Shown: in pieces, positions 11,424 to 49,670 of the stretch | Position numbering within the stretch: position 1 is the first letter of the stretch | How the letters are laid out: each line of letters opens with the position of its first letter | NCBI RefSeq assembly: GCF_029910535.1 | Contig: NZ_CP069362.1 | Span: 186,001-250,000 of the forward strand | Direction: 5' to 3' | Length of the DNA: 64,000 bases | DNA from: Marinitoga aeolica | GTDB lineage: Bacteria > Thermotogota > Thermotogae > Petrotogales > Petrotogaceae | Program-made: the position numbers and the translations under genes | Notes under the pieces: generated by a model | Seen by the model: only the letters and a program-made list of their open reading frames with translations | Told to the model about the DNA's origin: nothing | The model's database searches: none

Positions 11424-12878
11424 CTAGATATTTATTTTATTATATCTTTCAGAATTAATTACAATATCTACTAAATCATATGGTGTAAATTCTTTTCCTT
11501 CAATTATATAATCTAGTATTACTGGATTAAAACCAGAGAGAGTCATAACACCTTTTTCATCATCTTTTACAGGTACATCTCTTCCATATGAACTAACATT
11601 CCAAAAAACGATTCTTGGTACTTCATAACCATATCCTTTATACATTTGTTTTATTTTTTCATAATTAGTCATTTTATTATCTTCTACTGCAATATCAAAT
11701 TGCATATCAGATATAATGTATATAGTTTTTGGCAGATCTTCATTTGTATAATTTCCTTTTTTGGCTACGTCTAATATTAATTTAAAAGTTTTTATTATAT
11801 CCGTGTTCATTCCCCAATCAGCATTTTGTAAAGTCACAACATTTTCATATAATGTTTCTCCCTTTATTTCTTGCAATTCCGGATTTTGAGAGAACGTTAA
11901 AAATGTGTTTTTGAACTTTCCTTTGTTCCTCTGCGCAATATATATTGCTAAAGATATACTTACAAGTATAGGCATAGGGTATCCGCTATACATTGAACCA
12001 GATACATCTGCCATTACCAAAGCATCCTCTTTCACTTCATGTTTTGGTAGGTTTTTCCATAACAATTCTGCTGTCTCATCTGGTTTTTCCATAACCATTT
12101 CTACAACTTGGTGTGGATATAATGTACTAGCATTTATTTTCTTTTTTCCTTCTTTAACTTTTTCTAGATATTCTAAAAATCTTTTCTCATCATGTTTTAA
12201 AAATGATTTTCTATACCTTTTCATAGCTTGTGAGGGTACTATTTCATAATCTATGTTCTCCCAATTATTACTACTAACATCTCTTTCTACTATTCTCAAA
12301 TGTTCTCTTAAACCTGAAAGTACTTTTCTGTATGTTTTAGAATCCATGTTAAAATATTTACTCGTTAGTTTTCCTAGTTTTCTTGATTCTGCAGAACTAG
12401 TGTTTTCAGACTTTAACCATTTAGCTAATAAACTTATTTCTTTTCCTTCCTTATAGTTTTTTATATCTTCTATCAATTGGTTATACATCATCTTAAACAC
12501 TTGTGCTTCTATACTTGTTCCAACAAATGCGTATAAATCATCCCATCTTCCATATTCAGGTACATATTTTGCTATTTTGAGTGCAATATCTGGGTAAAAT
12601 GTCCCTAGCCTATTTAAGATAGTTCTAAAAGTGTTTCTAACGCCTTGACCACCTCTGACATCCCTGGAGTAAAAAAGAATTCTTATGGCTTTTAATCTAT
12701 CTTCATTAAAAGCATTAAAAAACATAGTCTCGAATCTTTTAAGATCATCCATCAAAGCGCCACAAAAGTAAAAAAAGTCCACAACATAGCTACCACTAGT
12801 CTTAAAAGAAAGAGCTCCATTTGCTGTAAAAGAAACGTTTGATTCCAATTTTAATGATTCAATAAATTCTCTACTCAT
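11424..12878 (-). CDS. DUF2828/TROVE-like (Ro60-like) protein with vWA domain
   Basis: A 484-aa protein. Residues ~1-270 match the helical-repeat module of the DUF2828/TROVE group (GALSFKTSGSYVVDFFYFCG, ARILFY-like RAIRILFYSRDVRGGQGVR, KIAKYVPEYGRWDDLYAFVG). Residues ~285-450 are a von Willebrand A domain with complete MIDAS: DVSGS in VMADVSGSMYSG, Thr in GMNTDIIKT and Asp in IISDMQFD. This is the layout of Ro60/Rsr, a ring-shaped RNA-binding protein that binds Y RNAs and misfolded or damaged RNA. Family assignment is by pattern; the link DUF2828-TROVE is from memory. ATG 12878 follows GAGGAGGTAATTAT, and that ribosome site can pair with an upstream complement. It neighbours hairpin repeats and the CARF/RNA polymerase operon. 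Confidence 0.75.
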   Translation of the reverse strand: MSREFIESLKLESNVSFTANGALSFKTSGSYVVDFFYFCGALMDDLKRFETMFFNAFNEDRLKAIRILFYSRDVRGGQGVRNTFRTILNRLGTFYPDIALKIAKYVPEYGRWDDLYAFVGTSIEAQVFKMMYNQLIEDIKNYKEGKEISLLAKWLKSENTSSAESRKLGKLTSKYFNMDSKTYRKVLSGLREHLRIVERDVSSNNWENIDYEIVPSQAMKRYRKSFLKHDEKRFLEYLEKVKEGKKKINASTLYPHQVVEMVMEKPDETAELLWKNLPKHEVKEDALVMADVSGSMYSGYPMPILVSISLAIYIAQRNKGKFKNTFLTFSQNPELQEIKGETLYENVVTLQNADWGMNTDIIKTFKLILDVAKKGNYTNEDLPKTIYIISDMQFDIAVEDNKMTNYEKIKQMYKGYGYEVPRIVFWNVSSYGRDVPVKDDEKGVMTLSGFNPVILDYIIEGKEFTPYDLVDIVINSERYNKINI

Positions 12879-13410: not shown

Positions 13411-14802
13411 TTAATATGCTATATGTTTATCTAAAATAATATCTAAATTTTCTGCCGAAGCCATATTAACAGCGTTTTTCAGTATTCCTTCTAACTCTCT
13501 GAAGTTTCCTGGATAACTATAATTTTCTAGTTTTTCAATAGCATCTAAAGAGATTTTTTCTATTTGATATTTGTTTTTATCTTTATCAAAATGATTAATA
13601 TATGGATTTAATAATATAAAGTTAATTAAAAATCTTAAATCTTCTTTTCTTTCTCTTAATGAAGGAATTTTTATTTTATATTTAAATCTATAATACAAAT
13701 CTTCTCTAAATTTATTATTATTAATTTCTCTCCTTAAATCTCTATTAGTTGCAGCAATTATAAAAGCTGGAGCCAGTATAGGCGATCCATCTAATCCTTC
13801 CGGCCTTATTTTAAAGTCATCTAAATATAACAATAATTTAGTTTGTACATCAGTTGGTATTTCTGCTATTTCATCTAAAAATACACATTTACCAACATTA
13901 GTTAATATCTTACCTTTTCTATTTTTCGCATCAGTAAAAGCTCCTTCTCTTGTTCCAAATAATTCAGAATCGACAAGTTCTTTAGATATATTAGATAATG
14001 AAAATTTATATATTTGATTACTTATAACTGAAGAAATAATTTCTGCAATTAAAGTCTTTCCAGTACCTGTTTCGCCTTCAATTAACAATGAAGGTAAAAA
14101 TATCTTTTCATTCAAAGCGGATAAATTCTTATCCAAAATCTCTAAATTTTTTTTATCCTCAATTACTTTATTAATGTTTTCTAATATTTCACTATATTTA
14201 TTCATTGCTAATTTAAAATCCCTTATTATAACTCTTAATTTTTTAGAAAAATCTTTCATTGTTGGATCTAGAAATATTGATACATATTTATTTTTCTCAT
14301 AAAATCCATATACATCTTCTGTATCTGGATAAAATTTCCAATCTCTTAACTTTTTATATGGTATGTCCATATATAATTTATTCCCTTTAGTTTTTAATCC
14401 ATAATTAATGTTTCTGATGTATTCTTTTAATAATTTTTCAAATTTCCCGATTTCCTCAAACTCATACATTAATCGTTTTTTTCTAAATATACCTATGATT
14501 TCATATTCTAAAAATTTTTCAAAAATTTCTCCTTTTATTTTATCTTCAACAATTAAAACAATTTTCTTGTCTTTTATTTTTTTTAAAAGATTACCATTTT
14601 TGTTTTTTAATGCTGGATTTTTCCTTTTTCTTTCTCCTTTTTTTAATAACTCTTTTTCTTCTAAAATGCATAAGTCAGCAGAATCTATATCTTTACAAAA
14701 TAATTCTGTTATACTTATTTTTTCTTCTTTCTCATTAAATTGTTTTTCTAAAGATTCAATAATATCATCAATATATTTTTCTTTTTTAGATATATAAATC
14801 AA
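13411..14802 (-). CDS. Sigma-54-activator-like AAA+ ATPase, no DNA-binding domain
   Basis: A 463-aa protein. The N-terminal ~230 residues form an unassigned sensor region. The AAA+ core has Walker A GETGTGKT, Walker B CVFLDEIAEI, a sensor AATNRDLRREI and arginine-finger context FREDLYYRFKYKIKIPSLRE. This is the central domain of enhancer-binding proteins such as RtcR, NtrC and PspF. The sigma-54-contacting GAFTGA loop reads GAFTDA, and the chain ends at YPGNFRELEGILKNAVNMAS plus a short tail, without the usual Fis-type HTH. TTG 14802 is the likely start: it follows GGGGTGATTAAA and sits one base after the upstream stop. It is the last gene of the CARF/RNA-polymerase operon and probably remodels that polymerase or a sigma factor (inference). 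Confidence 0.8.
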   Translation of the reverse strand: MIYISKKEKYIDDIIESLEKQFNEKEEKISITELFCKDIDSADLCILEEKELLKKGERKRKNPALKNKNGNLLKKIKDKKIVLIVEDKIKGEIFEKFLEYEIIGIFRKKRLMYEFEEIGKFEKLLKEYIRNINYGLKTKGNKLYMDIPYKKLRDWKFYPDTEDVYGFYEKNKYVSIFLDPTMKDFSKKLRVIIRDFKLAMNKYSEILENINKVIEDKKNLEILDKNLSALNEKIFLPSLLIEGETGTGKTLIAEIISSVISNQIYKFSLSNISKELVDSELFGTREGAFTDAKNRKGKILTNVGKCVFLDEIAEIPTDVQTKLLLYLDDFKIRPEGLDGSPILAPAFIIAATNRDLRREINNNKFREDLYYRFKYKIKIPSLRERKEDLRFLINFILLNPYINHFDKDKNKYQIEKISLDAIEKLENYSYPGNFRELEGILKNAVNMASAENLDIILDKHIAY

Positions 14803-14803
14803 T

Positions 14804-15589
14804 TTAATCACCCCAGAAAAATTTTTTATATTCTTCTAATACCATTTCAACTAAATTACTTTCTATAAGTTTATCATCATCTTCCATAATTTTATTATAT
14901 ATTTTTTCAACATAATCATCATTATAATATTTCTTTTTTTCTTCAATCGCAACTAAAAAAGCTCCAACAAAAATATTTAAATCATCTAAGTTTTCTTCAT
15001 TTTTTACATCTCCTTTTTTTAATTGATTGATATATTCAATATTGTTTTTTATAAACCTTCTAAATTCTCTATATTTTTTAAATTCTGGATTTTCATATCT
15101 GCCCTTTTCTTTCTTCATGGAAGACAAAGGCACAATATCTCCATTAGGTAATAACATAGAATAATCATAACCATAGTTTTTGTCAAATTCTACTATCCCA
15201 CCTGTTCTTTTATCTGAAGCAATTGCATAAAATTTTTCTTTTGTTAACTTTTCAAACCATGGGAATAATTTCGTTATCTCTTTTAAATTATTATATAAAT
15301 TTATACCATTAGTTAAATTCAATAATTCATAATAATAATAACCATTTTCATTTTTTACCTTAATTATTTGAAATCCAATTTTTCTTTTACTAATTTTCTC
15401 AGTTTCTGGATTGAGAGTTTTTTCTAGTTTTTTCAATTCTTTTTCTGAATAGTCTTCGCTATCTTCTTCTATATTTTCTAATTCATCTGTTTCTTCAGAA
15501 TTATTCATATAAATTTCGTTACTATAATACGATCTTTTTTTCTTGGTTATTTTTATAGTTTTTTCCTCTTCTTTTTTTCCTTTACTCAT
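14804..15589 (-). CDS. Unknown 261-aa protein coupled to the fused RNA polymerase
   Basis: The N-terminus (residues 1-75) is low-complexity and highly charged (KGKKEEEKTIKITKKKRS; an acidic EETDELENIEEDSEDYSEK stretch). The remainder looks globular (FQIIKVKNENGYYYYELLNL; AIASDKRTGGIVEFDKNYG; helical C-terminus ending KKFFWGD). I recognise no family. The ATG overlaps the RNA polymerase stop by eight bases behind GGAGGGATATAA, and the stop is one base from the AAA+ start, so it is tightly co-translated. A polymerase accessory subunit or promoter-specificity factor is possible, but no sigma-like motif is visible. Confidence 0.75.
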   Translation of the reverse strand: MSKGKKEEEKTIKITKKKRSYYSNEIYMNNSEETDELENIEEDSEDYSEKELKKLEKTLNPETEKISKRKIGFQIIKVKNENGYYYYELLNLTNGINLYNNLKEITKLFPWFEKLTKEKFYAIASDKRTGGIVEFDKNYGYDYSMLLPNGDIVPLSSMKKEKGRYENPEFKKYREFRRFIKNNIEYINQLKKGDVKNEENLDDLNIFVGAFLVAIEEKKKYYNDDYVEKIYNKIMEDDDKLIESNLVEMVLEEYKKFFWGD

Positions 15590-18500
15590 TTATATCCCTC
15601 CAGAAAAATGCATATTCTATTCTCGGATGCGTTTCATTATATAAATTCCCATTTTCAACTTTCTTCAATACATCTAAACCTTTTTCAAATGACATGCATG
15701 TCAAAGGACCTCTTAAATCAATATCATTGAAATACTTATTAACAGATGTTATGTTCTTATTACTCTTCAAATATCGAGCAAATAAATATAATAATTCAAA
15801 ATAGATAGATTTAGAATTCAATTTGCTAAAAATATATTCTTTAAAAATCTTATAAAATTCATCTTCAATATTTTTTAAAAATTCCATATAAGATTCACTA
15901 TTAAATGCGCTATTAAAAATCCAACTACTTACTTTTTGCATATTAATCCCTTCACAACCCGAGTGGAATGTTTCCATTGATAATTGAGTTCCTCTTTCAC
16001 CTAAAACATGTCCTGCAGAAATACCAACATATTCATTTATATCAAACTCTTTTAATTTTGAAACATCCCAACCTAAATATTTTCGACTTACATAATATTT
16101 ATTATCTATTTCTTTTATTTTAGGAGATAATAATATAAATTTATCTGGAATTTCTTCCACAGAAGTAATAAATTTAATTTCATATCCTGTTTTTATATAT
16201 CTATACATAAATCTATCTTTTCCAAAATTTTCACCTATTTTATTTCCATTATTTAATTGTAAATTCAAATCTATTTCAATCTCTTCAAAATCCTCAAAAT
16301 CTCCTGCTAATAATACTCCTAAAAATTCTACTAATTTTCTTGTAAAATAACCAGCATCTGCTACTTTCAATTTTTTATCCATTAATGTTCTTCTTGCTCT
16401 TCTTGCAATACCTTTTTTTATATCAAAATAATCTTTTTCTCCTAATCCATGAACAAATCCTTTTCCAAAATTTTCTACACTTTTATTTAATTGATTAAAT
16501 TGCGAATCTTTACCTCTACATTTCGATTCTCTTATATGTTTCATACTTTCAGCGTCATTAATTATTTCAAAAACACTTAAAGTTAAATTTTTTTCTGTTG
16601 CTTTTTTGATGTCTTTATCTATTATTTCTTCATTAATTAATTTCTTAATACCTTCAAAATCCCTATTTATAGCCAAATCTTTTATTTTTTCACTATACTC
16701 TTTTTTTATTTTTCCTTTATTGTCTCCTGATTCTAAATATTTTCCATATACCATATCCTGATCAATAGAATATATTAAATCTCCATCTCCAAGCTTAAAT
16801 GAATTTCTAGAAGGCAACATTTTAATTAGTTCAGACTTAACATTATCATCTAACTCAATATTTGGAAAATATACAGCCATAGTATCTCCGTCAAAATCAG
16901 CATTAAATCCTTCACAAACATTAATTGGTAATCCAATTGTGTAATTATGCCAGAACCTTGGAATAAAAGATTGTATAGAATGTCTATGCAATGATGGTTG
17001 CCTATTTAATAGAACATACATTTCTTTATTTTCAATATACTTATTTAGAATTTTTGCAATTTCAATTCTTTTTTTCTTATCTCCCTTTAAAGCTTTACTT
17101 AAATCATATTTATTTATTTTTATATTTTTCAACCACTCTATACCAAATTCAATAGGTAATATCACTTTATCTATATCCATATTCAAATCATATTCTTCTA
17201 TATAACTTAATGGTTGTGGTGTAATTACTGTTCTACTTGAAAAATGTAATCTTCTAGCTATAACTAAGTTTCTTAAATATCCATCTTTTTTGAATAAATA
17301 ATCTTTTAATGCATTTTCTACTCTAGTATTATAATCACTTTCATAATATTTTAAAGATATTTCCTTCTTTGATTTAGCTAATTTCTCCGTATATTCTTTG
17401 AATTTCTCATAATCTCCATCAAATAGTTTTATATGATTCATTGCAAATTTAAGAAATGGGATTTCAAAGCCTGGATACATAAAGTCATATATGTATTTTT
17501 CTACATCTTCATCATTGAATATTTTATTTTTATCATCAATAAATGTAAATTTAGATTTCATATATTCTTTTGTTTCTAATTTTATATTGAAATATTCCAA
17601 TATTTTCTTAAAATAATCTTCAGGATATCTCTTGTATTCTTTTTTAGTATATTTATCTAAATTTTTCTTTGCAAATAACTTTATTATATTTTTATTGTTA
17701 TACGAATACATTGACCAAAATTCCATTTCACCAAATCTTTGGCCACCTTTTCGTGATTTTCCTTTTAATGGTTGCCAATTAATTTCACCTTCACGCGCAA
17801 AAGAAACAACATGTATTTTATCTCTTACACAATGATCTAATCTAACAAAATATTGAAATCCAGCAGTTAAATTCCATTGATTATTTTTATATATTACCTT
17901 AAATCGTCCATAATCATCAGAACCTATTTTCTTTAATTCATTTAATAATTTATCTTTATATTTAAATCCATTTTCAAAAGGCAACACTCCATTATCAAAA
18001 TCTCTAAAATCTCCAAACTCTTTGGCAACAGAAAAATGAACTTCGTATAATTGACCTATATTCATTCTAGATACAACACCTAAAGGACTTAAAATAACTT
18101 CTACATTATGTTCTTTATTATTAATAATCACTTTTGGCATTTCGGCATCTGGAAGTATAAGCGATATTGTACCTTTATTTCCATGCCTTCCCATTATTTT
18201 ATCCCCAACTTCTAGGTGTTTTTTCACTAAATACTTAACTCTTATTTCTATTATCTTTTTAGATCCATCATAAGTTTGATAGGGTAATTCTGGATCTATA
18301 GGTATTTCTTTTATTTGTGCATTATATTTCCCCATATATCTTATAGTTTTTTTTAATTTACCATTATCATATATTTCAATTAATTTATCATCATATGAAA
18401 CCCAATCACCAACATGAACCTTCCATATTAATTCAATTTTTTCATCTTTACTTTTTTTATATAACCATTTATTGCCTGATTTTTTTGGATGTTTATCTTC

Positions 18501-19652
18501 TTTTACCTCAATGATGTATTTCTCTTCTTCTAAAACATGAGCTTCCATTTTTTCCGCAAAACTTTCAGAAACAACTATTCCATCTTCAAAATTAAATCCC
18601 TTAAAAAGACCATATACAACTAAACCATTTACTCCTATATAATCTTTTTCATTTCCAGTAAAAATTATTGGTTTTTCTGCCTTATCCAATTTTATAGCTT
18701 GTTTTAAATTTTTTGATCCCATTAATACTCTTGCACCATCTGAATGTAATATAAAAGGTATTTGACTTGTAGCAAATGACAACTTATTTTTACTCTTTTT
18801 AAAATTTAATTTTTCAAAATCATATGTTAAGTCATCAGAATATACTAAACTCAAAGTAAGTCCAATTTTTTCTGATTCTGGAGTCTCTAAAAAGTCTACT
18901 ATTCCTTTATGACTTTCATGTGGTAATCTCATATACTCATTTACTTTTTCATTAGGATACACAACTTTTCTAGGATTAGTATAGTATTCTATATAATTTA
19001 AATCATCTGGCTCAAAAAAAACAGGTATTTTTTGAGCTATATATCCTTGCTTTTTCTTTTTTTTATTTGTTAAAAAATACAAATAATATTTTACTCCTAT
19101 AGTTTTTGATAATTCATTTATATAATTCCCATATACAGCCTCATCATTTCCTTTTTTTTTCTTTTTTCTTTCAACAGAATTTACAATTCTTAAAAATGTA
19201 GATAAAATTGCAAGATAATATCCTTGAATAACAATTGTCTTTGAAATATCAAGATCTTTTTTTTCTTTTTTTTCTTTTTTTTCTTCATCATTTTTCTCTT
19301 CTAAAATAAATTTATCAAAAATAACAAATGGAGAATACAATTTTCTGTTTGCAGAATAAAAATATCCATCTTCATCCGGAACTAATATTAAAATATTTTC
19401 AAAAAAATATTTTATTTCATTTTTAAAATAATATTTTATATCGTACAAGTATCCCGTTAGTTTTTCTTCATCATTTATATTTGTATATACTTCTCGCTTA
19501 TTTAAGAATTCAAATTTAGAATTTTTTATATTATTAATTAATTTTTCATTTATATCTTTCAAATCTTCATCTTCTAATTTTATTAGTATTTTTTCAAAAA
19601 AAGAATTTAATATTTTTTGAATATTTATATTCCCAAAAACAGTGAAATTCAT
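15582..19652 (-). CDS. Single-chain beta-beta' fused DNA-dependent RNA polymerase
   Basis: A 1356-aa protein with both large RNA polymerase subunits in one frame. Beta part: TPESEKIGL (~254), DGARVLMGSKNLKQA (~302), GFNFEDGIVVSE (~351), MGRHGNKGTISL (~486, NTP-contacting region), ILSPLGVVSRMNIGQ and GGQRFGEMEFW (~634). Beta' part: SSRTVITP, LLNRQPSLHRHSIQ, the catalytic metal loop NADFDGDTMAV (~916) and the trigger-loop region GHVLGERGTQLSMETFHSG (~1214). All key active-site residues seen are intact. It is less than half the combined length of cellular RpoB plus RpoC, so lineage insertions and much of the N- and C-terminal modules are missing. ATG 19652 follows AGGAGG. It sits 13 bp after the CARF gene, implying signal-controlled transcription. 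A phage or plasmid origin (compare YonO-like enzymes) is plausible. Confidence 0.93.
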   Translation of the reverse strand: MNFTVFGNINIQKILNSFFEKILIKLEDEDLKDINEKLINNIKNSKFEFLNKREVYTNINDEEKLTGYLYDIKYYFKNEIKYFFENILILVPDEDGYFYSANRKLYSPFVIFDKFILEEKNDEEKKEKKEKKDLDISKTIVIQGYYLAILSTFLRIVNSVERKKKKKGNDEAVYGNYINELSKTIGVKYYLYFLTNKKKKKQGYIAQKIPVFFEPDDLNYIEYYTNPRKVVYPNEKVNEYMRLPHESHKGIVDFLETPESEKIGLTLSLVYSDDLTYDFEKLNFKKSKNKLSFATSQIPFILHSDGARVLMGSKNLKQAIKLDKAEKPIIFTGNEKDYIGVNGLVVYGLFKGFNFEDGIVVSESFAEKMEAHVLEEEKYIIEVKEDKHPKKSGNKWLYKKSKDEKIELIWKVHVGDWVSYDDKLIEIYDNGKLKKTIRYMGKYNAQIKEIPIDPELPYQTYDGSKKIIEIRVKYLVKKHLEVGDKIMGRHGNKGTISLILPDAEMPKVIINNKEHNVEVILSPLGVVSRMNIGQLYEVHFSVAKEFGDFRDFDNGVLPFENGFKYKDKLLNELKKIGSDDYGRFKVIYKNNQWNLTAGFQYFVRLDHCVRDKIHVVSFAREGEINWQPLKGKSRKGGQRFGEMEFWSMYSYNNKNIIKLFAKKNLDKYTKKEYKRYPEDYFKKILEYFNIKLETKEYMKSKFTFIDDKNKIFNDEDVEKYIYDFMYPGFEIPFLKFAMNHIKLFDGDYEKFKEYTEKLAKSKKEISLKYYESDYNTRVENALKDYLFKKDGYLRNLVIARRLHFSSRTVITPQPLSYIEEYDLNMDIDKVILPIEFGIEWLKNIKINKYDLSKALKGDKKKRIEIAKILNKYIENKEMYVLLNRQPSLHRHSIQSFIPRFWHNYTIGLPINVCEGFNADFDGDTMAVYFPNIELDDNVKSELIKMLPSRNSFKLGDGDLIYSIDQDMVYGKYLESGDNKGKIKKEYSEKIKDLAINRDFEGIKKLINEEIIDKDIKKATEKNLTLSVFEIINDAESMKHIRESKCRGKDSQFNQLNKSVENFGKGFVHGLGEKDYFDIKKGIARRARRTLMDKKLKVADAGYFTRKLVEFLGVLLAGDFEDFEEIEIDLNLQLNNGNKIGENFGKDRFMYRYIKTGYEIKFITSVEEIPDKFILLSPKIKEIDNKYYVSRKYLGWDVSKLKEFDINEYVGISAGHVLGERGTQLSMETFHSGCEGINMQKVSSWIFNSAFNSESYMEFLKNIEDEFYKIFKEYIFSKLNSKSIYFELLYLFARYLKSNKNITSVNKYFNDIDLRGPLTCMSFEKGLDVLKKVENGNLYNETHPRIEYAFFWRDINE

Positions 19653-19665
19653 ACTTTTCCTCCTA

Positions 19666-20778
19666 TTAAAATTTTTTATTCAAATATTCTTCTAATTTTA
19701 ATTTAATAACTTCTAGTTCCTCATTATTTCTGGCTGTTGTCTCAGCTTCTAAATGAAGTATTCCTTGCCTAGTTTGTAAAATTATTATTATATTATTACC
19801 TCTAATTTTTACTTTAGCTTTTGTAGATTTTTCATGCAGTGAATATCTTGATACCCATATTTTTTCAATATATTCAAAATCTTCAAAAATTTTCCTTAAA
19901 TTATATTTATTAATTAATTCCTTTGAATGCCCTTCGCTATTACTACTTAAAAAAAGTAAATCTTTATCTCTTTTTTTAGGTTTTATCTTATCTTGTAAAT
20001 GATAAAATTCATTTTTAATACTTTCAATATATATTTGTCCCATCGGACTAATTGATATATATTTTTCATTATCAATTTTTGTTATATCAAAAAATATTCT
20101 AGCTTCTCTAGATAATGACTTATACATAGACTCAAAATCAATATATGGTTTAATATCATCTTGTAAATCTTCAAATAATTCTCTACACAAAAAATACAAA
20201 CTCGAGTCCAAATTTAAAGGTAAAGGTTCTAATTCTATAACCTCTGGGAATCTCTCAAATCTGTAATATACTGGAACTTTTAATCCTTGACCTAAAGCCA
20301 ATGCAAAAGCTATTTGGGCTTTATATCCCCCTGTTGCGTTTATAATTATGCTTCCATAGTGTTGTCGGATAATACCTGCCATATTTTTTATTAAATTCTT
20401 TAAGCCATATATTTTAAAATCATATGGTTTTGAATCATCTAATCTTTCGTTTACCTTAACTTCTACATGTTCAAATTTATATTCTGATTTTTCAAAATAT
20501 TTTTTTAAGATTCTTCCTATTTTTTTCCCATCTAATGTATCAGAAATTAAAAAATAAAGGTATTTTCTTTCATTTATATATCCTTTTTTGATTATACTCA
20601 CTATAGAATTTATCTCTGCACCAAATCCCCTATAACTTTCTGGATCCTCATTTAAATTTAACAAATAATCTGAAAGCTCATCAACTTTACCTTTTTCAAA
20701 TAATTCTCTTAATTTATCATCTACTCTTAAATTGCCTAAAAGACTTGCCCCCACAGTACTAATTAATGTATTACTCAT
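19666..20778 (-). CDS. CARF-domain protein (APE2256/Csx1-like sensor)
   Basis: A 370-aa protein. The N-terminal ~190 residues are a CARF Rossmann domain: LISTVGASLLGNLR (first strand and loop), YLYFLISDTLDGKKIGRILK, and the family signature IIINATGGYKAQIAFALALG followed by VPVYYRFERFPEVIELEPL. CARF domains bind cyclic oligoadenylates made by Cas10 of type III CRISPR systems. The C-terminal ~170 residues (RKIFEDFEYIEKIWVSRYS; LQTRQGILHLEAETTARN) match no HEPN or nuclease motif I know, so output by nuclease activity is not evident. ATG 20778 follows AAGGGGGTG. It is the first gene of the operon with the fused RNA polymerase and AAA+ ATPase, and probably is the sensor that controls them. Confidence 0.85.
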   Translation of the reverse strand: MSNTLISTVGASLLGNLRVDDKLRELFEKGKVDELSDYLLNLNEDPESYRGFGAEINSIVSIIKKGYINERKYLYFLISDTLDGKKIGRILKKYFEKSEYKFEHVEVKVNERLDDSKPYDFKIYGLKNLIKNMAGIIRQHYGSIIINATGGYKAQIAFALALGQGLKVPVYYRFERFPEVIELEPLPLNLDSSLYFLCRELFEDLQDDIKPYIDFESMYKSLSREARIFFDITKIDNEKYISISPMGQIYIESIKNEFYHLQDKIKPKKRDKDLLFLSSNSEGHSKELINKYNLRKIFEDFEYIEKIWVSRYSLHEKSTKAKVKIRGNNIIIILQTRQGILHLEAETTARNNEELEVIKLKLEEYLNKKF

Positions 20779-20965
20779 CAAAACACCCCCTTTTAAATTC
20801 TATAATATTATAACATATTTTCATTATTAAATATATTAATAAATAAAATTTTTACTCTTTGATTTTTTACATATAATAAATTGAAATTTTTATATCTCAA
20901 TAATAATTATTTTTCTCTTATATATTTAATTAAAAAATATGTTATAATTGCACAGGGTGATTTAT
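20779..20965. promoter_or_regulatory. Divergent promoter region between CARF operon and helicase operon
   Basis: A very AT-rich 187-bp gap. For the minus-strand operon a TATAAT lies at 20812-20807, about 30 bp before the start codon. For the plus strand a TATAAT lies at 20943-20948, only 18 bp before the TTG start, so that mRNA would begin at or next to its AGGGTGA ribosome site. No good -35 box is seen for either. The shared region would let one factor control both operons. Confidence 0.5.
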
Positions 20966-23506
20966 TTGAATAATTTAAATATAGATAAAATTTATATCCA
21001 TAAAAATGCATTTAAAACAATAAAAAGAAATAAAAATCTTTTTATTGAGTTTAAAAATTTTATACAAAAAATAAATAATATAAGTCCAAAGCAAATAAAA
21101 ATAATATCTAATAGTCATTATAGAGGAAGACTTAGCTATAAAAATAGAATTATCTTTGATTTTTTAGATAACTCTATCTTAGTGTACATGATTGGAAATC
21201 ATGATATATATAATAAAATGGATTTTTCTTTAAAAAATTATCACAATAATATAAATTTAGATGGATTTCAAATAATAGAATTATCAAAAAATAACATTAA
21301 TAAAATACCAAAAATCAAACACATTGAATTATATTTAAGAAATGATAGTATCCAAAACGAGATTATCCACAATACAACTTATATCGATAATTTTCATTAT
21401 GGAATTAGTGGAATTGCAGGAAGCGGAAAAACAACTATTTTAAATAAATTATCATATATGTTCTTAAAAGAAAATAAAAATTTTATGTATTTAACTTATA
21501 ATGCGAAATTAAAAGATTATTTTTTTAATTTGGTAAAAAAATACTATGAAGAAGAAAACGAAGATTTTTCTAAAGCTAGAAACAAATTAAATGTATATAC
21601 CTTTAAAGAATTTATAAAAAATATAATTAAAAATTTTAACTTAAATATAAACCTATCTTATTATGTTTCTGATGATGATTGCAAAACTATAATAATGAAC
21701 ATTATAGAAAACTCAAAAAAAGATTTTAGTAGCCTTAGTTTTTATCCAAATGAAATAGCAAAATTAATAAACTCATTATTTATTGATATTGATTTTAATG
21801 ATAATATCAATGATATTCAAATTAAAATTCAGAAAAAGTTAGAAAGAAAAAATAAAGGTATATCATACTCTGAAAAGGATATTAAATTATTAAGTTATAT
21901 TATAAAAGAATATTATACTATATTAAAAAAAGAAAATAGAAAACCATTTTATTACTTATATAATGATATTGATATAAGCAAATTAAATTTCTCAGAAAAA
22001 TATATATTTATAGATGAAATGCAAGATTTATCTATAATCGAATTCGAATTTATAAAAAAAATCTTTAAAGATAATAATTTAATATTCACATATGATATAA
22101 ATCAAAACATTACATATAATGATGCTAAAGATAGAAACGTTTTAAATAGAGTTAAAGGTTTTAATGCTAATGATATTAAATATTTTAATCTAAAATACAA
22201 TTATAGAAACTCCTATGTAATAAACAAATTTGCTAATTTATTTGCTGATAATATTGAATTTGTAAATGGTAATCACAACCATATTCCAGTAAAAATTTAT
22301 ATTGGTGATAAAAATAAACTTATAACGATTTTAGAAAAAAGTATCCAAGAAAAACAAATTTTTGTTGGTGCTATTACTCCATATGATTATAAAATTAAAA
22401 ATAACAACTATATTGAATATTTCACCATAGATGAAGTAAAAGGCCTTGAATTTACTAACGTAGCAATCTTAGATTTTTATTATTCAACAAATAAAAAGAA
22501 AACTATTGATGATATTGACATAAAAAGATGGTATGTAGCCATTACTAGAGCAAAGGAAAATTTATTAATACATTTTAATAATATAAAAGAATTTGAAGAT
22601 TTTAAAAGAACATTTAATATAGATGATTTAATAAAAGAAAATTTAATCGAAATTGGCAATGATAAAAATATTATAGATTTATTCATAAATGATTTAGTAT
22701 ATGAAGATACTCAAGAAATAGAAAATATTAAATTGCTAGAAGCAGAAAAATTGTTCAAAGAATATGAAAAATATAAAGATAATACTTCTTTAGAGAATGC
22801 ATTAAACTTATTAATTGATATTAATTATATTTATTATTTAGAAGAGAAAATTAACTTATTAGATATACCAAATGATATTTTAGAAAATATCATTTATAAT
22901 AGAATAATAAAGAATGATATTAGAACAGTACAAAATCTTATGCATATTATTCCATCAAATATAATTAAAAACGTATTTAAAAAAATTATAAGCAACTTAT
23001 CACATATTGAAAAGTTTATAAATATATTTGCTGATAGCGAAAAAATAGATTATTTATTTAACATAATATTCGATGATAATATAAACACCAATAATTCAGA
23101 TTATATATTTCTAAAAAAGCATTTTATAGATTTATGTACAAAATACTTCCAAAAAACAAATGATAATATCTTTTTAGAATATATAGCTAAAACGCATGAA
23201 AAATTTAAAGATTATGAAAATGCGATTGAATATTATTTCAAAATCAAAGATTATAAAAAGGTTAATAACCTATCAAAAAAAATAAAAACAGTAACACATA
23301 CTCTTAGAGATATTATATTCAAGTCATACGTTAAAATTGAAAATAACAAAAAAATATTCGAAAAATATAATGAGTTATATAATGATAATAATATCTTAGA
23401 AAAAATCAAAGAGATTGATAATAACAAATATAAAGAAATTTATAATATTTTTTATTTAAACGAGTTAAATGAATTTCTAAATGACTTAAAAAGGAGGATA
23501 AAATGA
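20966..23506 (+). CDS. RelE-like domain fused to UvrD/Rep-type SF1 helicase
   Basis: About 846 aa. Residues ~1-95 resemble a RelE/ParE toxin fold (KNAFKTIKRNKNLFIEFKNF, then HYRGRLSYKNRIIFDF and SILVYMIGNHDIYNK). An SF1A helicase core follows: Walker A GIAGSGKTT, Walker B FIDEMQDLS, YNYRNSYVI, TIDEVKGLEFTNVAILDFY and motif VI RWYVAITRAKENLLI. The C-terminal ~300 residues are all-helical and unassigned. The start is placed at TTG 20966 with AGGGTGA five bases upstream; the upstream in-frame TTG at 20948 lies inside the promoter -10. RelE-helicase fusions are plausible anti-phage effectors; that role is inferred. It overlaps the coiled-coil gene by four bases. Confidence 0.8.
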   Translation: MNNLNIDKIYIHKNAFKTIKRNKNLFIEFKNFIQKINNISPKQIKIISNSHYRGRLSYKNRIIFDFLDNSILVYMIGNHDIYNKMDFSLKNYHNNINLDGFQIIELSKNNINKIPKIKHIELYLRNDSIQNEIIHNTTYIDNFHYGISGIAGSGKTTILNKLSYMFLKENKNFMYLTYNAKLKDYFFNLVKKYYEEENEDFSKARNKLNVYTFKEFIKNIIKNFNLNINLSYYVSDDDCKTIIMNIIENSKKDFSSLSFYPNEIAKLINSLFIDIDFNDNINDIQIKIQKKLERKNKGISYSEKDIKLLSYIIKEYYTILKKENRKPFYYLYNDIDISKLNFSEKYIFIDEMQDLSIIEFEFIKKIFKDNNLIFTYDINQNITYNDAKDRNVLNRVKGFNANDIKYFNLKYNYRNSYVINKFANLFADNIEFVNGNHNHIPVKIYIGDKNKLITILEKSIQEKQIFVGAITPYDYKIKNNNYIEYFTIDEVKGLEFTNVAILDFYYSTNKKKTIDDIDIKRWYVAITRAKENLLIHFNNIKEFEDFKRTFNIDDLIKENLIEIGNDKNIIDLFINDLVYEDTQEIENIKLLEAEKLFKEYEKYKDNTSLENALNLLIDINYIYYLEEKINLLDIPNDILENIIYNRIIKNDIRTVQNLMHIIPSNIIKNVFKKIISNLSHIEKFINIFADSEKIDYLFNIIFDDNINTNNSDYIFLKKHFIDLCTKYFQKTNDNIFLEYIAKTHEKFKDYENAIEYYFKIKDYKKVNNLSKKIKTVTHTLRDIIFKSYVKIENNKKIFEKYNELYNDNNILEKIKEIDNNKYKEIYNIFYLNELNEFLNDLKRRIK

Positions 23507-24315
23507 ATTTTGAACTAAATGAATTAATAACAGGGTTAAAAGAAAAAATTAATATAATAGATAATTATATTGAAAGTACTGAAAAAAGCTTTTCTAAAAC
23601 AATAAAAAAATTGGATGAAAAAGAAAATGAAATTTTAAAAAATATTGATCAACTTCATATGATTCAAAAAGAAATTATAACAGAAAATTCTAAATTAAAA
23701 GAGGAAATTAATAATTCAAACAATGATATAATGTCTTTATCTGAAAAAATAGAATCATTAAATGAAAAAGCCAAAAAAATTTCAGAAGACTTTTATTCAT
23801 TTAATAAAAAATATGATTTGGAATTATCAAAAATAAAATATATAAAAGAAAAAACCGAAAAATCATTATCGCAATTATTAAATGAACTAGAAAATAAAAA
23901 GAACGAAATAGGGAGTATTTTAGAAAATTTAAATGAAATAAAGAATAAATATGAATCAGAAATTGATATAAATAAAATTATAGGAGAAAAATTTAATGAC
24001 TTTTTTGAAGATTTGTTTAATAAAATAGAGACAGATTTAAAAGATAAGATTGAAGAAACTTTAGATGAGACATATTCATTATATGAAGATTATAAAGATA
24101 AAATTGAAAGCATTGCAAGAAGAATAGATAGGGATATTAAAAAAGTAAATGATGAAATTACATATTTAAAACTAAGTGTTTCACGAATTGATGCTACATT
24201 AGATAATAAAATAGCTAAAGCATTAAATGATATAGAAAAAAATATTATAAATCATATTGATGAAAAATTTGAAACCGATAAAAAAAGTTTTATTGATAAA
24301 ATGTTTAGAAAATAA
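23503..24315 (+). CDS. Coiled-coil protein partnered with the helicase
   Basis: A 270-aa protein that is almost entirely coiled coil (DNYIESTEKSFSKTIKKLDE; LNEKAKKISEDFYSFNKKYD; LDETYSLYEDYKDKIESIA). It has no membrane segment, Walker motif or nuclease motif. The ATG overlaps the helicase stop as ATGA behind GGAGGATAAA, so the two are translationally coupled and probably form one complex. I cannot name a family. Confidence 0.8.
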   Translation: MNFELNELITGLKEKINIIDNYIESTEKSFSKTIKKLDEKENEILKNIDQLHMIQKEIITENSKLKEEINNSNNDIMSLSEKIESLNEKAKKISEDFYSFNKKYDLELSKIKYIKEKTEKSLSQLLNELENKKNEIGSILENLNEIKNKYESEIDINKIIGEKFNDFFEDLFNKIETDLKDKIEETLDETYSLYEDYKDKIESIARRIDRDIKKVNDEITYLKLSVSRIDATLDNKIAKALNDIEKNIINHIDEKFETDKKSFIDKMFRK

Positions 24316-24344: not shown

Positions 24345-24376
24345 AAATCAAGGTCTTAAAGGCCTTGATTTTTTTA
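24345..24376. terminator. Terminator of the helicase operon, next to the distal end of CRISPR array 1
   Basis: AAATCAAGG (24345-24353) pairs with CCTTGATTT (24363-24371), followed by a T-run that merges into the degenerate last repeat of the array. On the minus strand it is flanked by A-rich sequence whose complement is U-rich, so it could also stop the CRISPR precursor RNA. Confidence 0.8.
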
Positions 24377-26659
24377 TATCTCATAGGTAGATTAAAAACC
24401 ACATTTGTTCCTAAGATTGATGAATGGATGAATGAGTTTCCATACCTCATAGGTAGATTAAAAACTTATTACCTAAACAAATACAGTGAGCAAGCCACTG
24501 GTAAGTTTCCATACCTCATAGGTAGATTAAAAACAACCAGAATATCATAAAGGAGAAATATCAGAAAGAAAAACAGTTTCCATACCTCATAGGTAGATTA
24601 AAAACCTGAGCTAGGTATCGACGTGTTCGTGTTACCTAAACAGTTTCCATACCTCATAGGTAGATTAAAAACTTTGTTCATTCCAAGAATACAAGAAATT
24701 CATGCAAATTACGTTTCCATACCTCATAGGTAGATTAAAAACCCTTAATTATGTCTTAATCAGAATGAAGGACGAAATAAAGTTTCCATACCTCATAGGT
24801 AGATTAAAAACTTTTTTAATGCAATTTTAAACAGAGACTTAGAATTAAAGTTTCCATACCTCATAGGTAGATTAAAAACATTAAAAAACGTATATATATA
24901 TTAGACAAAAAATATTCAGTTTCCATACCTCATAGGTAGATTAAAAACTCTTATTTTTAAATTATACATATTGCTATCCCTATCGTTAGTTTCCATACCT
25001 CATAGGTAGATTAAAAACGATACAGCAAATGTAGTAAGTAATATACTTGGAATTCCGTTTCCATACCTCATAGGTAGATTAAAAACACATATAGCATATG
25101 CACATATTACAACCCATATACAAGTTTCCATACCTCATAGGTAGATTAAAAACTCTACCGAAACACCACAAGAGTTAGTAAATTCAATTGGGGTTTCCAT
25201 ACCTCATAGGTAGATTAAAAACGATGAGTTTTCAATTGTGGAATTAACAAAAGAAGGTGTCGTTTCCATACCTCATAGGTAGATTAAAAACGACATATTA
25301 GAATTAAACGAATTAAAAGATAAAACACAAGTTTCCATACCTCATAGGTAGATTAAAAACTTATGCTTAATTCAAATGACATTCTTGTTTTTGATGTAAC
25401 GTTTCCATACCTCATAGGTAGATTAAAAACTTTAAGAGGATTCAAAGGTATTGTAACTTATTGGGCAGGTTTCCATACCTCATAGGTAGATTAAAAACTA
25501 TATTAAAATTTGATAATTATTCCATTCTGTTAATTTAGTTTCCATACCTCATAGGTAGATTAAAAACGCAAAAGAAAATCATTTAAAGAATTTGAGGAGG
25601 GTGAGTTTCCATACCTCATAGGTAGATTAAAAACAATATCCAAAACTTGCTAGACCTGACACAAAGTTTGATCGTTTCCATACCTCATAGGTAGATTAAA
25701 AACTATATTAAAATTTGATAATTATTCCATTCTGTTAATTTAGTTTCCATACCTCATAGGTAGATTAAAAACGCAAAAGAAAATCATTTAAAGAATTTGA
25801 GGAGGGTGAGTTTCCATACCTCATAGGTAGATTAAAAACAATATCCAAAACTTGCTAGACCTGACACAAAGTTTGATCGTTTCCATACCTCATAGGTAGA
25901 TTAAAAACATAATGAACAATATCAAAGATTTTCTGTTATATGTAAAAAGTTTCCATACCTCATAGGTAGATTAAAAACTTTCACACCTCACAATCTAATA
26001 GAAAGGAGATGTTTTTAGTTTCCATACCTCATAGGTAGATTAAAAACGAGGCCGCCGATTTCTAAGGCGGCTTTTGTTTTTTATTTGTTTCCATACCTCA
26101 TAGGTAGATTAAAAACGAAAAAATGAAGAGAGTGACTATTCCTTTTACAGATGATAGAGTTTCCATACCTCATAGGTAGATTAAAAACAAAGAAGAAGTA
26201 AAAGAAGTAAAAGGTGAAGTAATATCGTTTCCATACCTCATAGGTAGATTAAAAACAAAATCACAATAAAAGGTATAGGGCGACCTTAACAGCCGTTTCC
26301 ATACCTCATAGGTAGATTAAAAACAAATCAGATATCAATAAAGATTATGTAATTATTGATAGTTTCCATACCTCATAGGTAGATTAAAAACATATAGAAG
26401 CATTAAGTTCGTTCTTATCAGAAGAAGCAGTTTCCATACCTCATAGGTAGATTAAAAACGTACTTGCATCAATTGAACAGATTGGAAAGTTACAGTTTCC
26501 ATACCTCATAGGTAGATTAAAAACGAAGAAGAAAAAAAGGTAAAAGAATTTATCCGTGAATGTTTCCATACCTCATAGGTAGATTAAAAACCGAATTATT
26601 GAAGAGGCTTTATTAAAATATTTAGAGAGGTTTCCATACCTCATAGGTAGATTAAAAAC
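24370..26659 (-). CRISPR. CRISPR array 1: 34 repeats, 33 spacers
   Basis: A 30-nt repeat, read on the minus strand as GTTTTTAATCTACC... ...GAGGTATGGAAAC. There are 33 perfect copies from 24436 to 26659 plus a degenerate copy at 24370-24399 with four mismatches. Spacers are 35-41 nt. The degenerate end at the left and the leader at the right (26660 on) show that newest spacers are at the right and transcription runs on the minus strand. A three-spacer block is duplicated (25499-25908). In the many spacers I translated, the plus strand reads as coding sense, so crRNAs would be antisense to target mRNA, as type III RNA targeting needs. The repeat matches array 2 except for one base. Confidence 0.97.
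25499..25908. repeat. Tandem duplication of three spacer-repeat units inside array 1
   Basis: The 205-bp segment 25499-25703 recurs directly at 25704-25908. Three consecutive spacers (starting TATATTAAAATTTGA, GCAAAAGAAAATCAT and AATATCCAAAACTTG) appear twice in the same order. This is unequal recombination or replication slippage between repeats, not new acquisition. Confidence 0.95.
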
Positions 26660-26962: not shown

Positions 26963-26997
26963 AATAAAAAGGGCGATTTAATCATCGCCCTTTTTTT
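26963..26997. terminator. Bidirectional terminator overlapping the giant-gene stop codon
   Basis: GGGCGAT (26971-26977) pairs with ATCGCCC (26984-26990); a T-run follows on plus and TTTTTATTAA on minus. The TAA stop of the giant gene (26978-26980) lies in the loop. It separates the giant-gene operon from the CRISPR leader. Confidence 0.85.
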
Positions 26998-29900
26998 CTA
27001 CATAAAATTTATTATTTTTATAAATATATTTGTATTTTTTCGAGGAAAAAATTATATCGTTTTCAAACTCTTTTAATTTTTGGTTTCTATATTTTTCCAT
27101 ATTAATAGGTTTACTATTTTCGTATACTATTACATAACCTGTTTTGTCTCTCATGTATATTTTATTTTGATCAATATAAATATCAATTATTATATCATCA
27201 TAAAAATGATTATTTAAATAAACCCTTTTTAGATTTGGATTAAATTTATTTATAAACATTAATTTATTTTCATATGTATCCCAAATCCATTTATTATCCG
27301 AAATTTCTAGCTTCTTAGGCGAGTAATCAACAGTTTTTCCATTTAATACAATAAACTTCTTTTGATTTTTTAAATATTCATCATGAGCATTTAATATCTT
27401 TTTTGCACTATTAAATTTTATGATATGATTTTTTGAGAAAATACCATATTGGTTAATGTTGTATAGTTCATCAGTTTTTATTACTTTCCCTAATTTATCA
27501 AATACAAAAATATTATCAGTTATACTCTTTTCCATATTTTTAATTTTAATATAATCACCTGAAGATTTAATTCTTTCTTCTATATTCATATTTGGATCAA
27601 TATATATTTCTAGCAAAGCAGCATTTAGCATGGATTTTTTCATTTTTAATTTATTATACAATTTATTGTCCTTTACAAAATAATTATCAAGAGACCTCGT
27701 TGATAAATAATATGGAATTAATGTTTTCTTCCAAGTTCCAGAGTTATTTGATATATATAATGTATCATCAATATTGAAATCTTTTATTATATCAAATATA
27801 AATACTCCATTTAAGATTAAATTATCTAAACTAAAATGTTGATATTTAAATTCAAAATTTTCCGATAATTCTTCAGTAAATTTGGTGCCATCATAAGATA
27901 TTTTTACATTTAAATTTTTAAGTTCTGGCATATTAAATCTAAAATCTTTATTTTTTGTTTTAATAAGCAGGGAATCATTTATTCTCTTTTTATATACAAT
28001 ATTATTTGGTTCTATTAATTCTCGGAAAATACTTTTACTTATTCCATATTTATTTTCTATATAAATTTCATCAGCCTCAAATACATCTATAGGTTTTATG
28101 TTATTTAAATCATTTAATAATGATCCGTTAAATTTTAGTTCTACTTTTTTCTTTACCTTAGTCAATTTATTATTTACAAAATCAAATGACCAAAAATCAA
28201 ATTCATCAGTTTTATATTCATTAGTAGAATTTTTAGTTATTAAATATTCATTATTTTTTGAATCAATAGCTATTATATTATCCTCTTTTAAAAATACACT
28301 TTTTACATTTTCCTTTATTTTGTTTATATATATACCATCTTTAAAAACCATTATATTATTGTTATGAATAGATACTCTAATATCTCCAATTGGCTTAATA
28401 TCAAAATAATCATTAAAGGTTATATTTATATTTTCTTTATCTTGATAAAGATATAGGTTACTTGATAAATCATAAATATTAGATACTGTATAATCTGGAT
28501 TTAATACTATAGAATTATATATTCTTCCATCCCATTTATTAATCTTATCATCAAAAATATAATATTTTTTATTTGATTTTATGATTATATCATCAAATAG
28601 TTTATATGTTTTTTCTATATTCATTGTATTTTTGTACCCCATTCTGCCTGCTTCATATTCATATACTCCGTTATTCGCAATTATCTCTAACTTATTATAA
28701 TTTGATTTGATATTGAATATTTCATCAAAAAACAATCTTTTTGTTTTAATATTATTATTATAATAATTAAAGGTCATATCATTGGAATCAACTATTTTTA
28801 ATTCATTATTTTTATACATTAAATCTTTTAAATTATGTATTGATATTAATTCTTTTTCAGAAAGTTCTTTATATTTACCTTCATTAAAGATATACTTTTT
28901 ATTTAGTATAATTTCGTTTTTAATTAGATCAATACTTTTAGCTTCAAATGGTGCTTTATATAATTCATATTTATTATTATATTTTTTTAATATATTATTA
29001 GATTTCAAAAGGAAATAATAATCTTCGTTTTTCTTTATTATATTTATGACATTTTCTAATCCAAATATTTCATTAGATATTTTTGCATCTCTAATACTAT
29101 AATATTTATTGGCAAATTTTATATCGTAATTATCAAATTTCATTTTCATTTCATCTAGATCTAAAGATAATTTCTGATTATTATATTTTTCAATGGAATT
29201 ATCCTTTAAGCTAAATATCAATTGTTCATTTTCTAATATAATTAATAAATAATCTAATATTCTCTTTACTCCTATAGCATTTTTTAATTTTTGTCTGATT
29301 GTTAGATTATTATCTTTTAACTCAAATATATAATTTCTTGTAATGATGTATTTAGAATTATAATAGGATATTACACTTATAATATCTTCTGATTTGGTTT
29401 TTTCAATTTTTTTATTGTTATAATATAATGCATTTTTAGAGCTTTCTTGAGTTTCTAAAATGCCATTATCAATGTCAATATTTACACTATACTTTTTTAA
29501 ATATTCTGGATAATTTTTAATGTTTGCTAAATCAACTATTTCGTTTTTTATTACCATAGGAGCCTTATAATTATTTTTATCAACTATTTGAATTTCTATA
29601 TTATTCAATTTGTATAAGAATTTTGAGTTATTAAATACTACATTATTATTATAATATATAGCATTCAAAGGTTTTGCTAATGTGTTATATATATTATTAT
29701 AAAATTCATCTATATCCATTTTTTTATTGAAATAATAATATTCATTATTATTGCTTTCAAATGACTTAAACTTAGAATCAAAATATATTGCTTGTTTTTT
29801 ATATATTATATTGCTATCTTCCTTTAAAACATCATTTTCTATTTTAAATATTTTTCCATTAATATTAACAAAAACACCATTGTCTGCTGTAATTAAATCA

Positions 29901-47900: not shown

Positions 47901-48448
47901 AACGAAGAATACGAAGTTGAAACAATAGAATTTTGAGAGCTTCGTTTCCATACCTTATAGGTAGATTAAAAACAAAAAACAAATAGCAGAGATTTTGAAA
48001 AACAAAATTGGTTTCCATACCTTATAGGTAGATTAAAAACTGAATTTGAAGGAATAGAAATAATGAAAAAGAAAGAAGTTTCCATACCTTATAGGTAGAT
48101 TAAAAACTGGTGGGAATCAACGAAATTATTTATTTTCAAAAGAGCGTTTCCATACCTTATAGGTAGATTAAAAACTTTTGTCATTAAGGACGTTCAGCCA
48201 GCAACATTCATAGGTTTCCATACCTTATAGGTAGATTAAAAACAATAGTAAGAACAAGTGATGAATTAGTAAATAAGTTTTTGTTTCCATACCTTATAGG
48301 TAGATTAAAAACATTGTTTTAGGTAATACATATAAATATAAAGATATTATAAGTTTCCATACCTTATAGGTAGATTAAAAACTTAAAGGTTATGTATGGT
48401 ATGCACATAATATCAATTGTTTCCATACCTTATAGGTAGATTAAAAAC
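44997..48448 (-). CRISPR. CRISPR array 2: 51 repeats, 50 spacers
   Basis: A 30-nt repeat identical to array 1 except one base (CTT instead of CTC on the plus strand). There are fifty full copies from 45066 to 48448 plus a degenerate first copy at 44997-45026 with four mismatches. The leader is at the right end, so transcription is minus. Spacers are 36-41 nt; two neighbouring spacers are identical (46863-46901 and 46932-46970). Five spacers (45233, 45368, 46522, 46660, 46729) translate into overlapping stretches of one protein segment, and one (from 46387) holds a ribosome site and ATG in plus orientation. No spacer shared with array 1 was noticed. Confidence 0.97.
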
Positions 48449-48756: not shown

Positions 48757-48783
48757 ATAAAAAAAGGCAGCTTTAAAGCTGCC
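48757..48783 (-). terminator. Terminator of the cmr operon, overlapping the cmr6 stop
   Basis: A perfect palindrome GGCAGCTTTAAAGCTGCC (48766-48783) followed on the minus strand by TTTTTTTAT. The cmr6 TAA (48775-48773) lies in its centre, the same arrangement as at array 1. Confidence 0.88.
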
Positions 48784-49669
48784 CATTTATTTTAAACCTT
48801 CCATATCCCATTGATGTTTTTGCTCCAAGACCATAATATTCTATAAAATTTTTAAAATTGCTTTGTATTTCTTCAACAATGTTATTATTATTTCTTTCTA
48901 TTATTATATCAACTCTAAATTTACCTTTAAATACACTTAAAAAATTTAATGGAACTGGATTATATACATCATTTGGCGGTTGATTTCCGTTATAATATTT
49001 TTGAAAATGTGGTGTTTGATATTCAATTCCTAGTTCAATATCATTTATTGGAACAGCATCTAAAAATGATACTTTACCTTTTTTATCTTCTTCGCCAAAA
49101 ATTTCTTTAATAAATGTTGATTTTTCTGATTCTAAATATTTTCTAAAAGCTCCTTTTATAGTTGTTCCTGGTATAATAGGTAACCCTAAATTTCTACTCC
49201 AATAAAATCCAATCTCATCAATTGAAGGAATACCAGCTCCTACTAAAAATGGTGTTTTTGTATATATTTTATAACTAATAATATCATATCTATTTTTTAA
49301 AGAGCTTATCATATTGTGTCTTATATTTTTTGTTAATTCTATTTTTTTACAAAGATCTTTTATTACTAAATCTTTTAAGATGTTTTTATACCTTTGCTTA
49401 ATATGTTTTTCTAGAACTTTTTCTTTTTCTCCTTTTGCCAAATCCCTTATATCTTTTGTATTATTTAATATAAAAAGAGTATTTATATTTTTTAACTCAT
49501 TTTTATTCTTTTTTATGTTTTTATCTCCAGTATTACCTTTTAATATATTATTTATTTCATTTACAGTTGTGTTATCTTTTTCCATTATTCTTCTTTCACT
49601 AAATACAAATTTATCATAATATAAACTTGAATTTTTTATTTCATTTGGTTGATGTATAAAGTGCTTCAA
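48773..49669 (-). CDS. cmr6: Type III-B CRISPR RAMP protein Cmr6
   Basis: A 298-aa RAMP (Cas7-like) protein that caps the Cmr backbone. The C-terminal half has LGLPIIPGTTIKGAFRKYL, the RAMP loop motif, KGKVSFLDAVPI, TPHFQKYYNG and the glycine-rich end YGLGAKTSMGYGRF, the usual Cmr6 pattern. The N-terminal ~130 residues are charged helices. The start is likely TTG 49669, one base after the cmr5 TGA and downstream of AGGTGGTGAT. It is the last gene of the cmr operon. Confidence 0.92.
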   Translation of the reverse strand: MKHFIHQPNEIKNSSLYYDKFVFSERRIMEKDNTTVNEINNILKGNTGDKNIKKNKNELKNINTLFILNNTKDIRDLAKGEKEKVLEKHIKQRYKNILKDLVIKDLCKKIELTKNIRHNMISSLKNRYDIISYKIYTKTPFLVGAGIPSIDEIGFYWSRNLGLPIIPGTTIKGAFRKYLESEKSTFIKEIFGEEDKKGKVSFLDAVPINDIELGIEYQTPHFQKYYNGNQPPNDVYNPVPLNFLSVFKGKFRVDIIIERNNNNIVEEIQSNFKNFIEYYGLGAKTSMGYGRFKINGQL

Positions 49670-49670
49670 A

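Follow-up and report, generated by a model that had tools for sequence, protein, structure and literature searches.

A fused RNA polymerase, protein X and an AAA+ ATPase as a candidate transcription machine of CRISPR-Cas islands in Marinitoga aeolica and other Thermotogota

The stretch analyzed here (the window) comprises 64,000 nucleotides (nt) of the Marinitoga aeolica genome (contig NZ_CP069362.1, positions 186,001 to 250,000) and contains a minus-strand operon (13411-20778) of four tightly packed genes encoding a CARF protein, a single-chain beta-beta' RNA polymerase, a protein that we call X, and an AAA+ ATPase. The first gene, with its best start at ATG 20778, encodes a 370-aa CARF protein of the CARF7--CARF_DUF2103 type (19666-20778, minus; Pfam Cas_APE2256, 1.5e-31; PADLOC CARF7--CARF_DUF2103, 2.7e-116). 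The polymerase gene follows 13 nt downstream (15582-19652, minus) and encodes 1356 aa matching the Pfam profiles Rpb2_6 (5e-36), Rpb1_2 (2e-22) and Rpb1_5 (1e-10). The last gene (13411-14811, minus) encodes a 466-aa ATPase resembling sigma54 activators (Sigma54_activat, 1.8e-35), with a GAFTDA loop and no C-terminal helix-turn-helix (HTH). An initial annotation of this DNA, made from the letters alone, had described these three genes and the motifs of the polymerase, and profile searches bore out the description. It had missed the fourth gene, encoding the 261-aa protein X of unknown fold (14804-15589, minus), which lies between the polymerase and AAA+ genes, overlaps both, and proves to be part of the conserved core. 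A TATAAT sequence upstream of the operon (20807-20812, minus) is likely its host-type -10 box, and similar boxes are found upstream of the polymerase operon in several genomes.

The polymerase carries GRHGNKG (aa 488), GGQRFGEME (aa 636), NADFDGD (aa 917) and the trigger-loop sequence GERGTQLSM (aa 1218). As in bacterial RpoB and RpoC, both double-psi barrels, the bridge helix and the trigger loop are present, and the active site is intact; by its Pfam profile, the Rpb2_6 match spans the flap (SBHM) insert region of the beta barrel. The host rpoB and rpoC genes lie elsewhere, near 1.5 Mb, and their products share only 33-43% identity with the fused polymerase, over short stretches. Unlike the bacterial enzyme, the fused polymerase is one chain and lacks the beta' N-terminal clamp, the Zn site and the sigma-binding coiled coil: alignment to the rpoC profile starts near position 302, and the N-terminal third of beta' is replaced by about 115 variable residues (aa 660-775), or about 70 in genome G002. 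As this leaves no room for the beta' N-terminal third, ordinary sigma binding by the fused polymerase seems unlikely. YonO and the fused phage polymerases also combine beta and beta' parts, with both barrels, in one chain, whereas the enzyme described here is chromosomal, linked to CRISPR loci and accompanied by X and the AAA+ protein.

The fused polymerase was identified in 27 of 103 Thermotogota genomes; low-scoring matches in G045 and G056 look like host rpoB and were left out of this count. Its frame is intact in more than 20 genomes with invariant catalytic residues, which excludes a chance origin. In an alignment of 24 polymerases, NADFDGD, GNKG, GGQ and the trigger-loop core GERGTQLSM were nearly unchanged, the exceptions being GEK, GEF and RAM in one sequence each. 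The gene order polymerase, X, AAA+ was maintained in complete loci, as three overlapping genes in nearly all loci spanning the core. In the two loci of G097, a genome with two copies of the module (L055 and L056), the open reading frame filter did not call X, although a suitable gap exists for it. In G059, where neither Cas10 nor CARF-CYTH-HD was detected, breaks split the polymerase gene (L058:7325-10625) into several frames. In G076 (L039:2699-7569), an MpAgo-like Argonaute and a CRISPR PrimPol are encoded beside the polymerase module, together with arrays.

Scans of genome and viral collections with single proteins yielded no matches, and a profile (A1) was needed to find relatives. The profile search recovered a Synergistaceae locus (L075) with the same polymerase, X and AAA+ layout, a CARF-HD gene directly before it, and a CRISPR array, Cas6 and another CARF gene nearby. 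A second Synergistota locus, from a complete genome (L077), has CARF-HD ahead of the polymerase and X and, in the vicinity, CARF and Cas10 genes; that stretch did not yield the AAA+ gene. More distant sister modules were found in Methylobacter, Desulfobulbaceae, Victivallales and Verrucomicrobia, with no CRISPR genes visible at these loci. The Methylobacter polymerase follows a protein with the conflict-system domain TCAD9, and the Desulfobulbaceae and Verrucomicrobia modules adjoin integrase genes. In the phylogenetic tree, the AAA+-linked fused polymerases formed one clade (support 0.998) separate from the fused viral (0.993) and cellular polymerases; within it, the Thermotogota and Synergistota polymerases grouped together (0.964, or 93 by ultrafast bootstrap), and the polymerases of this CRISPR-linked clade are single chains of 1240-1525 aa. 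Homologues confined to phages or plasmids without CARF genes, a pattern that the initial annotation had named as contrary to a CRISPR role, were not what we observed: no close relative was found in viral contigs, phages or plasmids, and a CARF partner is present in most carriers.

The CARF protein encoded directly before the polymerase in the window was found in this position only in the genus of the window, where its place is kept in G041 and G044 only, and it was rejected as a general partner of the polymerase. A different gene, CARF-CYTH-HD (PADLOC PDLC01929), was present in 20 of the 27 carriers and in none of the 76 non-carriers (Fisher p 9e-16; two of the 20, G027 and G054, are partial matches at contig edges). 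When genera were counted, it was found in 14 of 17 carrier genera and 0 of 21 non-carrier genera (p 7e-8). The HD residues were invariant in 13 sequences. The dedicated CARF partner of the polymerase is thus CARF-CYTH-HD, or CARF-HD in Synergistota, and not the adjacent 370-aa protein. The copy in M. aeolica lies at genome positions 252255-254528, 2.3 kb beyond the window edge. The core consists of the polymerase, X and the AAA+ protein, with a sensor that seems to be replaceable while the three genes stay together. In G020, a 1050-aa helicase (L040:11598-14747, minus; PADLOC C3a193, a possible alternative Cas3) is encoded beside CARF-CYTH-HD and has an element of the kind described below, in its AAAGTGT form, at its start.

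The predicted structure of the AAA+ core aligned with NtrC1 with a Z score of 24.3 and a root mean square deviation of 2.1 over 240 residues. The protein shares with the sigma54 activators NtrC, PspF and RtcR the AAA+ core, the Walker motifs and a GAFTGA-type loop, here G-[AS]-[FYW]-T-[DGS] with the first glycine and the threonine invariant. In contrast to those activators, all 25 AAA+ proteins end after the AAA+ lid without the C-terminal Fis-type HTH and carry no DNA-binding domain; a PADLOC match to RtcR (CARF-AAA-HTH) spans the AAA+ part only. A sigma54 gene is present in the genome of the window and was not detected in seven carriers (G006, G007, G053, G054, G094, G095 and G097), and a search for -24/-12-like sequences upstream of the polymerase operons gave scattered matches only. 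Sigma54 was on these grounds rejected as the partner of the AAA+ protein. In these seven carriers, where no sigma54 gene is detectable, the AAA+ protein must therefore work with another partner, and the simplest candidate is the polymerase together with X. The predicted structure of X has an ordered core (overall predicted local distance difference test score of 74.7, above 90 in the core), and no match to it was found in the PDB by sequence, Foldseek or VIA-align.

A promoter-like element, AAAGTGTnnnTATAAAnnTTGAAA with variants, recurs in the sequence preceding and surrounding the modules, and a locus often has several copies. The element is nearly restricted to CRISPR islands. It takes the form AAATGTCTnnTAATAATTTGAA in the clade of the window (AAATGTCTnnTAATAATTTGAAA in its genome) and AAAGTGTRnnTRWAAA in other carriers. 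Its information is limited to about 24 positions, with no -35-like box conserved upstream, and several copies come after terminator hairpins, roughly 30-50 nt ahead of start codons. Four copies lie on the minus strand of the window: TGTCTAGTAATAATTTGAA (63477-63495), before the genes for a 140-aa protein, a kinase and a PP2C phosphatase; TGTCTAATAATAATTTGAA (59583-59601), after a terminator hairpin and before a short open reading frame; TGTCTATTTATAATTTGAA (59349-59367), before a 272-aa gene (58501-59319); and TGTCTGTTGATAATTTGAA (58451-58469), before a 443-aa gene and the cmr genes behind it.

The pattern TGTCNNNTNATAAYTTGRA had 23 matches in the 103 genomes, 21 of them in five carriers and 20 within 25 kb of the polymerase, cas10 or cas1, and its reverse had three matches in all. 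In M. aeolica, all nine genome-wide matches fall on one strand within 15 kb (genome positions 244451-259595), before cas1-cas2, the CARF-CYTH-HD cluster, the kinase/phosphatase genes and the 443-aa gene next to cmr. All four matches in G041 were on its Cas10/Cas1 contig, all four in G052 were in its two CRISPR islands, and G053 and G054 had two each. In G052, a DarT-like gene between the cmr genes and the polymerase (L037:6203-6874) also has the element in front. No match was found in the four non-carriers of the same genus as M. aeolica; in one of them, G042, the orthologous cmr operon lacks the element. For the pattern AAAGTGTRNNTRWAAA, 19 of 23 matches were near the polymerase, cas10 or cas1, in nine carriers, with scattered single matches elsewhere. 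No convincing repeated element was seen in Synergistota or the other phyla, for which single loci were examined. The genomes using the TGTC form correspond exactly to a single clade of polymerases (bootstrap 90). Families f1 and f9 are mixed in this clade, while family f2 uses the AAAGTGT form although it belongs to the same order as f1. The form of the element thus appears to follow the polymerase tree rather than taxonomy, a pattern that horizontal transfer of whole islands would also give. In G091, an orthologue of the G094 island has lost the polymerase and CARF-CYTH-HD and carries a truncated Cas10; two copies of the element are present in it.

Taken together, the gene content, the co-occurrence, the distribution of the element and the lack of a detected sigma54 gene in some carriers make it reasonably probable that the polymerase, X and the AAA+ protein constitute a dedicated transcription machine of the CRISPR-Cas island. 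We infer that the host polymerase would produce the module from an ordinary promoter, and that the module polymerase would start at its own bipartite promoters, consisting of a TGTC or AAAGTGT box, a few bases, an AT-rich TAA box and then TTGAA or TTGGA, in front of the cas1-cas2, cmr, kinase/phosphatase and CARF-CYTH-HD genes. X would probably recognize or hold the promoter, and the AAA+ protein, hydrolyzing ATP in the manner of sigma54 activators although no sigma54 is involved, would probably open the complex. Through CARF-CYTH-HD, the activity of the machine would probably be set by the cyclic oligoadenylate that Cas10 produces. Expression of the immune genes would then rise in a feed-forward burst, which phage inhibitors acting on the host polymerase would not be expected to block. 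For the full version of this scheme, a complete private system with its own polymerase, initiation factor X, AAA+ starter and a promoter code evolving with the polymerase, in which immune genes would be independent of the host polymerase and amplified on the Cas10 signal, the balance tips slightly in favor.

Several observations weigh against this interpretation. Because island sequences were the source of the patterns, some of the island matches follow by construction, which is the strongest caution; the genome-wide counts, the reversed pattern and the out-of-sample sites (G041, G054 and three of the four in G052) serve as safeguards. The element could bind another regulator, and a draft non-carrier genome, G010, has it near cas10 and cas6. 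X has no recognizable fold, and promoter recognition by this protein is a guess. The CARF-CYTH-HD gene of M. aeolica has a frame break in the CYTH part (L230:5600-5880, minus), with CARF and HD remaining open. Neither Cas10 nor CARF-CYTH-HD was detected in carriers G023, G012, G057, G059, G064 and the incomplete G053, and the element and CARF-CYTH-HD are both missing from G044, which does carry the polymerase operon.

The initial annotation had proposed that target recognition by the CRISPR complex switches on a dedicated transcription machine. The link to CARF and type III loci is strong and reaches a second phylum, although the CARF gene that tracks the polymerase is not the adjacent one. 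The polymerase might instead be an end effector switched on by cyclic oligoadenylate, which would make promoter-blind RNA or transcribe toxic genes and thereby drain nucleotides or stop growth; this is close to what the initial annotation and the UAS-58 entry discussed below imply. The CARF-CYTH-HD linkage and type III neighborhood, the invariant HD site and the listing of a similar gene pair, UAS-58, as a putative CARF effector would fit such a role. We nevertheless regard it as unlikely, since it leaves unexplained the confinement of the element to islands, its place before cas genes and its variants following the polymerase tree, and some carriers lack a detected Cas10. The island-confined element before cas and CARF genes makes the polymerase look less like an end effector and more like a transcription machine of the island.

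The element might also be an operator or promoter used by the host polymerase with another island regulator, the private polymerase doing a different job such as copying RNA or phage templates. The resemblance of its TAATAAT part to a host -10 box and its presence in G010, where no polymerase was detected, are consistent with this, but no conserved -35 region lies upstream of the element, no other transcription regulator was seen to be common to the islands, and non-carriers of the same genus lack the element, one of them despite its orthologous cmr operon. The truncated Cas10 in the polymerase-less island of G091 also argues against it, and we give this explanation a rather small chance. Very improbable, in our view, is a polymerase derived from a mobile element or phage and carried as cargo in defense islands with no tie to CRISPR function. 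Integrase genes do adjoin two sister modules, and fused viral polymerases exist as a separate clade, but the near-perfect co-occurrence with CARF-CYTH-HD, conservation over a phylum, the lack of a close phage or plasmid copy, and the pairing of the Methylobacter sister with TCAD9 all speak against cargo.

The dedicated machine that we favor would serve the CRISPR-Cas island. In the window, a type III-B cmr operon (48773-55292, minus) encodes a Cas10 with GGDD and HD motifs; as the initial annotation had stated, its Cas10/Cmr2 (51839-54175, minus) is intact, with GGDD at residue 551. Two CRISPR arrays, at 24365-26460 (repeat GTTTCCATACCTCATAGGTAGATTAAAAAC) and 45062-48175 (repeat GTTTCCATACCTTATAGGTAGATTAAAAAC), have repeats differing by one base (CTCATAGG versus CTTATAGG), and a 2853-aa open frame lies between them (26978-35539, minus). 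The cas2 gene and the edge of cas1, which runs on beyond the window, occupy 63497-64000 (minus). Inside the island, 60310-63454 and 57092-58423 (minus) form a conserved block of a Ser/Thr kinase, a PP2C phosphatase and two unknown genes, also present in G066 (L235) and G053 (L239); several of its genes have the element in front. Divergent from the polymerase operon, an SF1 helicase with a weak HelD match and a coiled-coil gene (20948-24315, plus) are conserved alongside it in G041, where a DUF2828/DUF7788 gene adjoining the module (11424-12878, minus) is also retained.

The initial annotation knew of no RNA polymerase among the described CRISPR effectors. Altae-Tran et al. (2023; PMC10910872) had, however, catalogued a 'two-component RNAPol + CARF' system near type III loci as UAS-58, in a one-line entry as a putative effector, so the association itself is not new. 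The module studied here, with an RNA polymerase gene and a CARF gene near a type III locus, is very likely this cluster, as matched by its description, and the legend of the UAS-58 figure glosses CYTH, HD and FleQ, matching genes found here (PMC10910872). The main text of that paper gives no three-gene core, promoter element or mechanism for UAS-58, unlike the present analysis (PMC10910872). No prior report of the three-gene core, the independence from sigma54, the wider sister families or the island-specific promoter element was found in the literature searched, with subscription papers and preprints outside its scope. Csa3 (CARF-HTH) also represents CARF-linked control of CRISPR gene transcription (PMC9704534), but it is a regulator of the host polymerase, whereas the module would be a private polymerase.

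With three proteins and a defined template to work with, what had been a single line in a catalogue becomes a mechanism open to direct testing. The host RNA polymerase is a common target of phages, which take it over or shut it down, and how the expression of immune genes is then maintained is, to our knowledge, poorly understood. If the proposed reading is correct, the module would start transcription in a way that is gated by an AAA+ protein and independent of sigma, and its one-chain polymerase would be naturally orthogonal and heat-stable, with a candidate promoter already known. A cellular immune system would then have a promoter class and a multisubunit-type polymerase of its own, and the cellular polymerase, the usual target of viral attack, would not be the enzyme that transcribes it.

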